This document shows, one piece after another, positions 2,728 through 63,018 of a stretch of 64,000 nucleotides of DNA (positions are counted from its first letter, which is position 1; the number at the start of each line of letters is the position of its first letter). Under the pieces are notes generated by a model that made no database searches, was not told the DNA's origin, and saw only the letters and a program-made list of their open reading frames with translations. The position numbers were made by a program, and so were the translations under genes. Source of the DNA: Robertkochia flava (GTDB lineage Bacteria; Bacteroidota; Bacteroidia; Flavobacteriales; Flavobacteriaceae); the NCBI RefSeq assembly GCF_020166515.1, contig NZ_JAINZT010000005.1, positions 186,001 to 250,000 on the forward strand. Reading direction: 5' to 3'.

Positions 2728-2798
2728 GGAGAATAGGAGATTGTAGGTTTGCCGTTCGATGGGTTAATTTTAAGTTATAAGTTTTGGTATATTAATAC

Positions 2799-3095
2799 TC
2801 CCAAACTCCAACCTACCGTGCTTCGCACAGGCAGGCAAGCTCCAACTCCAACTCAAACTCAAGCTCCAACTCAAACTCCAACCTACCGTGCTTCGCACAG
2901 GCAGGCAAGCTCCAACTCAAACTCAAACTCAAACTCCAACCTACCGTGCTTCGCACAGGCAGGATTTCCTCCCTTGAGGGATGGCAAGCTCCAACTCAAA
3001 CTCAAACTCAAACTCAAACTCCAACCCAAACTCCAACTCCAACTCCAACCCAAACTCCAACTCCAACTCCAACTCCAACTTCAGCTCCAACTCCT
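2799..3095. repeat. Composite hexamer array (CTCCAA/CTCAAA) with three embedded palindromic islands
   Basis: About 300 bases of CTCCAA and CTCAAA hexamers are interrupted three times by the island CCTACCGTGCTTCGCACAGG (plus CAGG), which folds as an imperfect hairpin. The third island is extended by TTTCCTCCCTTGAGGGATGG. The plus strand is almost free of G outside the islands. The same composite unit occurs in inverse orientation at 21830-21966. Open frames through it are low-complexity Gln/Leu/Ser runs and are not genes. Confidence 0.9.
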
Positions 3096-3300
3096 GACTG
3101 ATTCGCCCATCATTTCATATCCTTTCGCTCTCTTTTTCTAATTCTGGGATTTTAAACTTCATCTCTTCGAAATTTTTGTGATTGGTTTTTCCATTGTTAC
3201 TCAAAGACTTCCAGTTATTTAGTAACTTCATAATGGAGGAGTGTCAAGGAAGGCTTTTTCCTGTGTAACAAATATTACAGCCCTGAAGCAGGGCAACCCT

Positions 3301-19124: not shown

Positions 19125-20636
19125 TTATCTTTTAGAGATGGCCTTGTTGAGAATACCCATCACCCCCCGGATAAAGGTAGCGCTGGTAAGTACTTTTACT
19201 ATTGGATTCATCCGGGAGCTACTTCTGGGTTGTACCGTCTTTCTCTGGGTACGTGCTTTTTCCTGCAACTCCTCCTCGCTGGCTTTTTTAATCTTTTCAT
19301 TCAGCAACTCGTAAGCACTCTCCCGGTCTGTACGCTCATTGTACTTGGAGGATAGTGCAGATCCTTTTAGCAGCGTGCTGAGTTCGTGTTCGGTTAGGAT
19401 ATCCATCCGGCTTTGGGGTGCTCTCATCATGGTGGCGGCAAGGGGGGTGGGCCTGCCTTTCTCATCGAGTGCCGTAACAAGGGCTTCCCCTATACCCAGG
19501 CTGGTAAGTACCTCTGCCGTGTTGTAAAACTCGGAGATCGGATAGTTTTCTGCGGTTTGTTTTATGGCCTTCCGGTCTTTGGCGGTAAAGGCCCGAAGCG
19601 CATGCTGAATCTTGAGTCCCAGCTGGGATAACACCTCCTCAGGAACATCAGTCGGGGTCTGGGTAATAAAGAACACCCCCACACCTTTAGACCGGATCAG
19701 CTTGATAATGCTGTTGATCTGGTCGAGCAATGTAGTGGAAGCCTCGTCAAAAATAAGATGGGCTTCGTCTATAAAAATCACCAGCTCGGGTTGTTCGGGA
19801 TCGCCAATTTCGGGCATGGTGGTGTAGATCTCTGCCAAAAGGCTCAACATAAAGGTGGAGAACAGCTTGGGCTTATCCTGTATATCTGTAAGCCTGATCA
19901 CATTGATGTAGCCCTGCCCGTTCTCATCCAGGCGCATCAGGTCGTCTGTTTCAAAGGATCGCTCTCCAAAAAAAAGGTCTGCTCCCTGTTGTTCCAGCTC
20001 GATGATCTTTCTGAGAATGGCACCGGTGGAAGAAGTTGAGATCCGGCCGTAAGCTTTATCAAACTCTGCCTTTCCTTCTTCGGTGGCATACTGAAGGATT
20101 TTTTTCAGGTCCTTTAGATCGAGCAAGGGCAGTTCCTTATCGTCACAGTACTTAAAGATCACCGCCATAATACCTTGCTGAGTTTCCGAAAGGTCGAGAA
20201 TACGGGATAACAGCACAGGGCCAAACTCTGAGACGGTTGCTCTTAACCTTACTCCTTTTTGATCGGATAGGGTAAGAATCTCAACCGGGAATCCCTTGGG
20301 GGCATAATCCAGTCCGATCGCCTTCATACGTTCGTCTATCTTAGGATGGGGTGTACCTTCAGCAGCCAGTCCGCTGAGGTCACCTTTCAGGTCCATCAGT
20401 AATACAGGAACCCCCCTGGAAGATAGCTGTTCTGCCATAACCTGCAGGGATTTGGTCTTGCCTGTACCCGTGGCCCCGGCAATAAGCCCGTGCCTGTTCA
20501 GGGTTTTCAGAGGGATCCTGACCATGGTGTTCGTGAGCGGTGCGCCATTGAGCATGGCAGCGCCAACCTCCAGGGCATCTCCCTTAAAGGTATATCCTTG
20601 TTCAATCGCTTCTTTAAATTGATCAGCAGTATGCAT
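19125..20636 (-). CDS. HerA/YjgR-like ATPase (DUF853 family)
   Basis: The 503-residue protein has Walker A at GATGTGKTKSLQVMAEQL (about 53-70), VLLMDLKGDLSGLA after it, and Walker B LVIFIDEAHLIFDEAST (about 288). The sensor-like FITQTPTDVPEEVLSQLG segment and a C-terminal coiled, basic tail complete it. The family (E. coli YjgR) belongs to the FtsK/HerA superfamily of hexameric NTPases; its cellular role is not settled. The leader lies next to a 300-base octamer array that separates it from queE. The cupin gene follows after four bases, so they likely share a transcript. Confidence 0.88.
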   Translation of the reverse strand: MHTADQFKEAIEQGYTFKGDALEVGAAMLNGAPLTNTMVRIPLKTLNRHGLIAGATGTGKTKSLQVMAEQLSSRGVPVLLMDLKGDLSGLAAEGTPHPKIDERMKAIGLDYAPKGFPVEILTLSDQKGVRLRATVSEFGPVLLSRILDLSETQQGIMAVIFKYCDDKELPLLDLKDLKKILQYATEEGKAEFDKAYGRISTSSTGAILRKIIELEQQGADLFFGERSFETDDLMRLDENGQGYINVIRLTDIQDKPKLFSTFMLSLLAEIYTTMPEIGDPEQPELVIFIDEAHLIFDEASTTLLDQINSIIKLIRSKGVGVFFITQTPTDVPEEVLSQLGLKIQHALRAFTAKDRKAIKQTAENYPISEFYNTAEVLTSLGIGEALVTALDEKGRPTPLAATMMRAPQSRMDILTEHELSTLLKGSALSSKYNERTDRESAYELLNEKIKKASEEELQEKARTQRKTVQPRSSSRMNPIVKVLTSATFIRGVMGILNKAISKR

Positions 20637-20692
20637 ATATGATGAAGTTTATACTAAAATACGGGAATTTGTTAATAGTTATGGGATTAAGA

Positions 20693-21008
20693 AGGGAGGT
20701 ACGTGGGTAAGGAGGTAAGGAGGTAAGTGGGTAAGGAGGTATGGAGGTACGTGGGTATGGAGGTATGGAGGTATGTGGGTAAGGAGGTATGGAGGTATGG
20801 AGGTATGGAGGTACGGAGGTATGGAGGTACGGAGGTATGGAGGTACGGAGGTACGTGGGTAAGGAGGTATGGAGGTATGGAGGTACGGAGGTATGGAGGT
20901 ATGGAGGTATGGAGGTATGGAGGTACGGAGGTATGGAGGTTCGGAGGTATGGAGGTGCGGAAGTACGTGGGTACGTGGGTACTTGGGTACCTGGGTACGT
21001 GGGTACGA
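20693..21008. repeat. Long tandem array of octamers (GGAGGTAT/GGAGGTAC/GTGGGTAC)
   Basis: Roughly 38 head-to-tail 8-base units, mostly GGAGGTAT, GGAGGTAC and GGAGGTAA with interspersed GTGGGTAn, fill the gap between two divergent genes. Edges drift to GTACTTGGGTACC-type variants. The plus strand is almost free of C apart from the GTAC positions. All six frames stay open only because the unit has no stop in some frames; they are low complexity and not genes. Confidence 0.93.
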
Positions 21009-21178
21009 AGAGGAAGTGAGGGGGTGCGTGGCGTGTTGGTGTCAGGGAGTCGGGAGTAGATGTTCTTAACGCATGCCTTGTCCCTGATTTTACTCCCGGG
21101 TTGAGCAATCCTTAAAAACTGAAAATTTCGAGCCAAGAACTGCGTGCTGAGATCTGTTTTCTATAAATAAAGTAATTG

Positions 21179-48157: not shown

Positions 48158-48352
48158 TTACTCTTCGTTCCTGCGCTGGTATTCCAGCTTGTATTTTGCC
48201 TTGGCGATCTCCTCGCGACGGGCGGCAGATGGTTTTGTGAAGTGTTGATTCTCACGAAGCCTCTGGATCTGTTGGGTCTTTCTAACCTTTTGCTTGTACC
48301 TTTTTAAGGCGCGATCGATATTTTCTCCTGGTTTTATATTGATAATAAGCAT
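48158..48352 (-). CDS. rpsU: Ribosomal protein bS21 (small paralogue possible)
   Basis: The 64-residue basic protein (MLIINIKPGENIDRALKRYK, FTKPSAARREEIAKAKYKLE) matches the bS21 N-terminal strand and helix pattern. bS21 binds the 30S platform near the anti-Shine-Dalgarno region. The sequence differs enough from common flavobacterial S21 that a second paralogue in the genome is likely. Its start lies 24 bases after the U-tract of the cold-shock gene terminator and no promoter box is visible between them. Confidence 0.85.
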   Translation of the reverse strand: MLIINIKPGENIDRALKRYKQKVRKTQQIQRLRENQHFTKPSAARREEIAKAKYKLEYQRRNEE

Positions 48353-48375
48353 ATGGATGTATTTTATGTAATTAT

Positions 48376-48412
48376 AAAAAAAAAGGGAGGTAATGCCAAA
48401 GCACTACCTCCC
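48376..48412 (-). terminator. Rho-independent terminator between cold-shock gene and rpsU
   Basis: GGGAGGTA and TACCTCCC arms around GTGCTTTGGCAT-type loop, followed by TTTTTTTTT on the minus strand. rpsU starts 24 bases further on. Confidence 0.9.
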
Positions 48413-48422
48413 CGGGAATTCT

Positions 48423-48617
48423 TTAGTCGATTACTTCAACGTTAATGGCATTAATCCCTTTTTTGCCTCTTTCGGTTTCAAATTGTACACGATCATTATC
48501 ACGGATCTCGTCAATAAGACCTGTTGAGTGTACGAAAATGTCTTCTCCACCATCTTCTGAGGTGATGAATCCGAATCCTTTTGTTCTGTTGAAGAACTTT
48601 ACTGTTCCTTCTTTCAT
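48423..48617 (-). CDS. Cold-shock domain protein
   Basis: The 64-residue protein has both RNA-binding motifs, KGFGFITS (RNP1) and DIFVHSTGL (RNP2), and starts MKEGTVKFFNRTKG. Cold-shock proteins bind single-stranded RNA/DNA and can melt terminator hairpins. A long leader (from about 48620 to at least 48760) without an obvious promoter fits the long untranslated region of csp genes. The next genes downstream, after a terminator, are rpsU and the NYN protein. Confidence 0.93.
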   Translation of the reverse strand: MKEGTVKFFNRTKGFGFITSEDGGEDIFVHSTGLIDEIRDNDRVQFETERGKKGINAINVEVID

Positions 48618-49094
48618 GGTATAAAAATTAAAATGTGATGAAATCAGATCGTTCTTTGGTCACCGCATATGCAGGATAATTTGCCTGTACATGCTGAATG
48701 CCCGGATCTGAAAAGCAAAAAATAAAAAAGAGGAAATAATTATCTGAAGGGATGAAAGATTTCTTGATCTGATTGAATCTTCTGCTATTTGCGGCAAAGA
48801 AACGATTTTCTAGTGGTTTTAACTAATATAATCGGGTTTACTTTGAGTTCAATGAGTTTTGAGCCACTTGAAAAAAGGTGGGTGATGTCTTCATTTTTCC
48901 AGCTATAACGGGGGATAAGCAACGTTTATACGCACGGTTTTGGGTGTAAAATAAATTTAGTCATCTTCGAAAAGGCTTTCTTTGGTATTCATTAAGTAAG
49001 GTTTTACCTCTGTTTTTCCTTCAATACAGATGTAAAGCCGAAGTAGGAGCCGTAAAATTTTTAACTTAAGCCATGCAAATTAAATCAATACAGG
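48618..49094. other. Intergenic region between divergent cold-shock and Gfo/Idh genes
   Basis: These 477 bases probably hold the cold-shock gene's long 5' leader on the minus side and the promoter of the Gfo/Idh gene on the plus side. I see no perfect TAnnTTTG box and no coding frame with family resemblance. Confidence 0.45.
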
Positions 49095-62610: not shown

Positions 62611-62621
62611 GTGAGTGATTG

Positions 62622-63018
62622 TGGAGTCGGGGAGATTCGAACTCCCGTCCAAACAAGCAATCAAAATGCTTTCTACATGCTTAGTTCCCGTTTGGTTTTC
62701 GACTTGCAGCTGACCGGAAACCGCCTACAACAAGCTTAACTTCTTAAGATTTAAGATCACAACGAAGTAATGCGATCTCTATGTTGACTTTTATGGTGCC
62801 TCTGATCGGGACGCCATCAACAAGGGCTTCCCAGAGACATCTCGCCTCCCCGCCTCGCGGGGACATGGCCAAAATCTTACTATGAATTCAGATTAGGCAG
62901 CAAGAGCGTAGTTATTCTCGCCATTTAAAAAGTGTGAAACATGAGATTTAAGAGCTATATCCCAGCGCTCTGCATGCTTACATTCCAATTAGACTCGCTG
63001 TCAAAACCAGTCGACCCC
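62622..63018 (-). ncRNA. ssrA: Transfer-messenger RNA (tmRNA)
   Basis: The 397-nt minus-strand gene begins GGGGTCGACTGGTTTTGACA (63018), pairs its first seven bases with CGACTCC before the 3' end, and has the T-arm GGGAGTTCGAATCTCCC. The tag-coding part at 62922-62893 reads GENNYALAA then stop, the tag expected in Bacteroidota. It rescues stalled ribosomes by trans-translation. The 3' CCA is not encoded (A at 62622 followed by CAA), so CCA addition by enzyme is needed. A strong terminator follows. Confidence 0.97.

Follow-up and report, generated by a model that had tools for sequence, protein, structure and literature searches.

How a second bS21 gene and the gene for an RNase-like protein come to be expressed when both lie behind an intrinsic terminator is the question raised by a short locus in the genome of Robertkochia flava (3.45 Mb, 13 contigs). 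In the stretch of 64,000 nucleotides analysed here, hereafter the window, three genes follow each other on the minus strand: csp, encoding a cold-shock domain protein of 64 amino acids (48617-48423; Pfam CSD, 1.2e-18), rpsU2, encoding a second bS21 paralogue of 64 amino acids and devoid of a Shine-Dalgarno (SD) sequence (48352-48158; Ribosomal_S21, 2.5e-14), and a gene for a predicted RNase of 246 amino acids with NYN and LOTUS (OST-HTH) domains (48157-47417; NYN 3.4e-39, OST-HTH 3.4e-19). The first two genes are adjacent and in the same orientation, as in a csp-rpsU cold-shock operon, and the spacer between them contains on the same strand an intrinsic terminator (48413-48376) with a stem of 13 pairs (48413-48384) followed by eight T. 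A first-pass annotation of this DNA had described the same series of csp, terminator, rpsU and NYN-LOTUS gene, which is confirmed, the last gene lying beyond the segment then described. The distance of 24 bases it gave from terminator to rpsU start is right, 23 nt separating the T run from the ATG, and the NYN ATG does abut the rpsU TAA. It had further suggested that, for want of a visible promoter box behind the terminator, the two downstream genes may need readthrough. Elsewhere in the window, a tmRNA gene is found on the minus strand (62619-63018; full-length match, 144.7 bits), and low-complexity frames rich in Pro/Thr/His and Gln/Thr at 20623-21136 and 2749-3141 look like DNA repeats rather than genes.

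The possibility that rpsU of the window is the housekeeping copy was ruled out, since the genome has three rpsU genes and the canonical one lies upstream of genes that we take to be xerC and hpf. This canonical copy has a promoter box and an SD of 11 nt, with GAAAGGAGGTG before its start, whereas rpsU2 has neither an extended SD nor a promoter box; the third copy, rpsU3, is also without SD. The rpsU2 product is nevertheless a bS21 by family score (PF01165, 53.2 against 27 bits; TIGR00030, 44 against 28.95) and matches chain z of 7jil (9.5e-14). The paralogy and the loss of the SD, both evident from the DNA itself, had escaped the first-pass annotation. Upstream of rpsU3 (L003:1400-1491; L072, L077, L082, L066) inspection by eye reveals a conserved TTAACA-N20-TATAAT, with TATACT in L066, which within the genus is unlike the usual TAnnTTTG promoter. 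In four loci of other genera (L029, L068, L069, L081) an SD-less extra rpsU stands behind the end of a reading frame, presumably the C-terminus of RpoD.

For comparison, loci scoring higher with the window rpsU than with rpsU1 or rpsU3 were designated rpsU2, and the 19 listed here come from at least 17 of 397 family genomes together with G003 and G004, at an E cut of 1e-19 under which weaker rpsU2 were possibly missed. Copies with xerC or hpf within the fetched flank were termed canonical, so that a copy cut by a contig end is counted in the mixed remainder. A TAnnTTTG box within 100 nt upstream was present in 54 of 58 canonical copies, 2 of 19 listed rpsU2 and 7 of 30 in the mixed group; for SD matches of 6 nt or more the figures were 42/58, 0/19 and 2/30 (L012 and L111), respectively. 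The SD-less canonical copies often come from other families within the order. Independent named loci, taken as the best 80 of 392, gave the same picture, with an SD in 38 of 40 canonical copies and 1 of 40 others. Three duplicates (L127, L133 and L136, of L013, L016 and L017) were dropped from the promoter-matrix, SD/box, tree and hairpin counts, and the NYN-anchored loci L033-L057 were excluded from all rpsU counts. In the tree, for which the canonical group was reduced by sampling to 18, the 19 listed rpsU2 form one group (86/83, with the fork drawn open). Both the tree and the set inspected for Tyr54 omit L096, whose aligned start has no ATG, as well as L111, truncated by the end of its contig, and duplicate copies of canonical proteins. 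While the extended SD of an autoregulated rpsU is missing, Tyr54 of the anti-SD pocket is kept in all 19 listed rpsU2, suggesting that their bS21 probably still helps to hide the anti-SD and disfavouring a radically different ribosome.

A comparison of neighbours, proposed with the first-pass annotation, was carried out on the same loci. A csp gene is found directly upstream of rpsU2 on the same strand in 10 of the 19 (G000, G001, G002, G004, G019, G034, G124, G125, G170, G282) and is absent there in nine, and an NYN gene lies directly downstream in nine, representing five genera (G000-G004, G125, G170, G404, G409). The closest named genome among the best 80 of 392 loci, Robertkochia sediminum, carries an rpsU2 that is 86% identical in the order csp-rpsU2-NYN found in the window, and csp-rpsU2 also occurs in two Galbibacter loci among these 80. 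Given the starred branches of the tree, the csp state of the loci must have changed at least three times, though the alignment of 64 columns resolves poorly. The same gene families are neighbours in other orders too: csp adjoins NYN convergently in L174 (G149), and an rpsU paralogue is located downstream of NYN in G013 and G199 (L052, L175).

The association of an RNase-like gene with a ribosomal protein gene, claimed from the window alone, is thus a true linkage, and in all nine linked loci the NYN ATG follows the rpsU2 stop by 0-6 nt. Among the 19 rpsU2 genomes, the NYN gene is nonetheless situated elsewhere in five (G025, G124, G149, G276, G282) and was not found in four (G019, G034, G084, G218), which counts against a tight bond with rpsU2; in G199 it is upstream of rpsU2. 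In 60 unselected relatives an NYN gene was present in 25, in five of these behind rpsU2, all of the genus of the window. The window protein scores above the Pfam cut-offs for both NYN and OST-HTH and has the acidic residues; all 34 NYN proteins compared share D13, D15, D77, D102 and D104, from which RNase activity is predicted as likely. A sequence search of the PDB gave no more than two matches, both to uncharacterised proteins and confined to the C-terminal part.

The hairpin itself is a consistent part of the csp-rpsU2 arrangement. In the window the spacer folds with -25.1 kcal/mol (z -4.9; none of 200 shuffles as good). An initial scan demanding perfect stems and a T-initial tail missed two of the ten csp-rpsU2 spacers, and a second, looser one, tolerating one mismatch and a small tail offset, detected a terminator-like hairpin in all ten; a stricter terminator scan called it in the window and G001 and not in the spacers of G002 and G004. 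By the same looser rule, such a hairpin stood upstream of rpsU in only 1 of 9 csp-less rpsU2 loci and 1 of 58 canonical loci, and it was found behind 18 of 20 solitary csp genes. On these comparisons the hairpin is an ordinary csp terminator rather than one made for rpsU2; its presence does not speak for design, and it need not have evolved as a switch. Its end lies 17-31 nt before the rpsU2 ATG in nine of the ten loci (70 nt in L113), leaving little room for another promoter. The csp-rpsU2 region matched no Rfam family at the gathering threshold, and hence no known thermosensor or riboswitch family is present at that threshold.

A promoter shared with csp could be the source of transcripts for rpsU2 and NYN. 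The predicted csp promoter, probably serving rpsU2-NYN also, is located on the minus strand at 48826-48795 and comprises TTAGTTA, 16 nt and CGTTTCTTTG, with the start of transcription expected at about 48790. It is kept across all ten csp-rpsU2 loci, which have in common TTAGT...GTTnCTTTG (CATTACTTTG in L115) followed by a long leader that includes a T-rich element (48740-48711, minus strand, in the window, within the conserved promoter-leader profile). The -7 box of these ten loci and of G003 (48795-48802 in the window, and equivalents) reads TTnCTTTG and not TAnnTTTG, a departure from consensus at the second base that all of them share.

An alignment-based profile of promoter and leader was built from the ten loci and run on the sequences upstream of the 9 csp-less rpsU2, 91 other rpsU and 20 other csp genes; the three duplicates remain among the 61 canonical controls, so that the 91 rpsU controls amount to 88 distinct loci. 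Two csp-less rpsU2 matched strongly (G003, E 8e-19; G404, 1e-6), five weakly (G025, G276, G409, G218 and G084; 0.006-0.17) and two, G149 and G199, not at all. The best other rpsU upstream reached 0.51, and since one of the 20 other csp upstreams, that of G404, scored 0.013, the five weak matches are no proof. An earlier 49-column promoter matrix, trained on nine loci, gave four of the nine csp-less loci scores of 19.6-39.8, higher than any control (best 17.7), and left five within the control range. In G025 and G276 a csp at another site has this promoter-leader before it (8e-12 and 2e-16), as if the csp-rpsU2 pair had been split and at least csp had retained promoter and leader.

An instructive locus is that of G003, a congener and sister species, in which rpsU2 is without csp and terminator and directly follows a csp-type promoter and leader. 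Its rpsU2 is 94% identical to that of the window and pairs with it in the tree (99/85), next to the csp-bearing G002 (99/90). Most simply, csp and terminator were lost here while promoter and leader stayed before rpsU2. As judged by the profile, the promoter-leader is retained before rpsU2 in at least two csp-less loci. Since rpsU2 of G003 stands directly behind a csp-type promoter-leader, the csp promoter is the most likely source of rpsU2-NYN transcription, which at loci with the terminator would proceed by readthrough. The suggestion that rpsU and NYN need such readthrough accordingly gains comparative support from G003 and G404.

We therefore favour, with moderate confidence, a cold-shock-type operon in which promoter and long leader are followed by csp, terminator, rpsU2 and NYN-LOTUS gene, and in which a single promoter would drive all three genes. 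The terminator would make csp the main product, and the fraction of transcripts that read through would yield the second bS21 and the RNase-like protein. Lacking an SD, rpsU2 should be translated without the dependence on bS21-free ribosomes that marks canonical rpsU. It could thereby furnish bS21 independently of the autoregulatory loop, plausibly at low temperature, and this bS21 could enter ribosomes; cold induction of csp is itself suggested by its family only. Against the operon, csp is absent from 9 of the 19 listed rpsU2 loci, solitary csp genes bear terminators as well, and of the seven csp-less loci other than G003 and G404, five match the promoter-leader profile weakly and two do not.

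It has been proposed for this locus that Csp governs its own downstream genes, and antitermination by cold-shock proteins is known in E. coli. Csp would then melt the terminator hairpin and raise expression of rpsU2 and NYN in a feed-forward switch acting mainly in the cold. NCBIfam names CspE as an antiterminator, and csp directly precedes the hairpin in 10 of the 19 listed rpsU2 loci. However, the window Csp attains 69.3 bits against the CspE cut-off of 120 in NCBIfam, and a terminator of this sort, with no rpsU2 behind it, follows 18 of 20 solitary csp genes. Nor, by comparison of the loci, is Csp in cis essential for rpsU2, since nine of the 19 loci lack it and the G003 gene follows a csp-type promoter without a terminator. 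Antitermination by Csp is a guess, and we regard it as unlikely.

Readthrough would be unnecessary if rpsU2 had a promoter of its own. The earlier statement that no promoter box precedes rpsU holds for TAnnTTTG, of which there is none in the 745 nt before the window gene, but it overlooked a sigma70-type pair, TTGGCA-17-TATAAT (48399-48371, minus strand), which spans terminator and T run, matches at 11 of 12 positions and is at the right distance. The TATAAT before rpsU3 of the genus, noted above by eye, implies that boxes of this kind may be used. Yet only three such sites were found in the 2.8 kb scanned against 4.5 expected by chance, and none of the three other csp-bearing genomes of the genus has a comparable site from hairpin to rpsU2 start. 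The pair is moreover not the Bacteroidota consensus, which for the primary sigma factor is TTTG/TAnnTTTG (PMC6847099). A promoter inside the terminator was for these reasons rejected as the main reading; the site was judged a chance occurrence and a separate rpsU2 promoter improbable. A promoter within csp was also considered: DIF codons give TAnnTTTG in some relatives (e.g. L010), and this is absent in the window.

The hairpin could alternatively be a processing site or 3'-end stabiliser, one long RNA being cut into a stable csp RNA and an rpsU2-NYN RNA. A stable hairpin would protect the csp 3' end equally well, and the 17-31 nt between its end and the rpsU2 ATG in nine of ten loci would suffice for ribosome loading, but a stem ending in a T run, as found here, is typical of intrinsic terminators, and processing appears to us a rather improbable explanation. 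That the genes are merely inherited side by side and expressed independently or silent is very improbable, for although NYN is away from rpsU2 in five of the 19 genomes and not found in four, and csp is missing from nine, the order recurs in several genera, the NYN spacing is 0-6 nt in nine of nine loci and the promoter-leader stays with rpsU2 after csp has gone (G003, G404).

Going beyond the operon, one may speculate that Csp-tuned readthrough, an SD-independent bS21 and the NYN-LOTUS RNase together form a route by which ribosome composition is changed in the cold, with the RNase acting along with, or on RNAs bound by, ribosomes that carry the bS21 isoform. This combined scheme is improbable as it stands. 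If true, translation would be reprogrammed by a conserved module of csp, bS21 and RNase, in a phylum where most Shine-Dalgarno sequences are ignored. A recurring second, SD-less bS21 gene on a cold-shock-type promoter would demonstrate how cells escape from the bS21 autoregulatory loop and offer a simple genetic handle on ribosome heterogeneity, candidate RNase partner included. Bacteroidota would also join the alphaproteobacteria, gammaproteobacteria and cyanobacteria, for which a connection of bS21 with cold-shock RNA-binding proteins has been reported.

The loop to be escaped has been described in F. johnsoniae, and PMC9976891 relates that bS21 of Bacteroidota helps to sequester the anti-Shine-Dalgarno tail and, by way of an SD, regulates its own synthesis, that ribosomes lacking bS21 translate the SD-bearing rpsU mRNA best, and that replete ribosomes initiate on rpsU with a large activation energy, an effect that worsens at low temperature. 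The canonical copy of the window genome resembles Flavobacterium johnsoniae rpsU in its extended SD, as bS21 does in Tyr54, whereas the loop acts through the SD, which is absent from rpsU2. The discussion of PMC9976891 lists bS21 paralogues, none of them from Flavobacteriales.

Cold-shock operons with csp and rpsU are already known elsewhere, so that the kind of system is known; no report of a csp-rpsU2-NYN operon in Bacteroidota was found among the papers listed from an open-licence library. In Sinorhizobium meliloti the cspA-rpsU operon, described as cold-regulated (O'Connell and Thomashow 2000, as cited in PMC4424878), likewise joins a cold-shock gene and rpsU, an arrangement seen here in the order of the genes. 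The present locus differs from it in belonging to Bacteroidota, in the terminator between the genes, in the NYN-LOTUS gene behind, and in that its rpsU is a paralogue without SD, the genome having in addition a canonical copy with one. In Anabaena variabilis the pair rbpA-rpsU is cold-regulated (Sato 1994, as cited in PMC4424878). There too an RNA-binding protein gene, cold-induced in Anabaena, accompanies rpsU, but this first gene encodes another kind of RNA-binding protein without a cold-shock domain. Anabaena RbpA is of the RRM type. SD use differs in the phylum of Francisella. In this genus rpsU1, for one of three bS21 homologues, is in an apparent operon behind cspC, though neither terminator nor RNase gene is mentioned in the available part of PMC9578407. 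Bacterial proteins combining an NYN/LK-nuclease with OST-HTH, the two domains found here, are known, and some bacterial members are fused to an S1/cold-shock OB fold (PMC2848206). In the window the cold-shock domain has a gene of its own, two places upstream and beyond that of bS21, and by analogy the fusions hint at the same partnership. New in the present locus are its occurrence in Bacteroidota, the terminator between the genes, the SD-less bS21 paralogue and the RNase gene.
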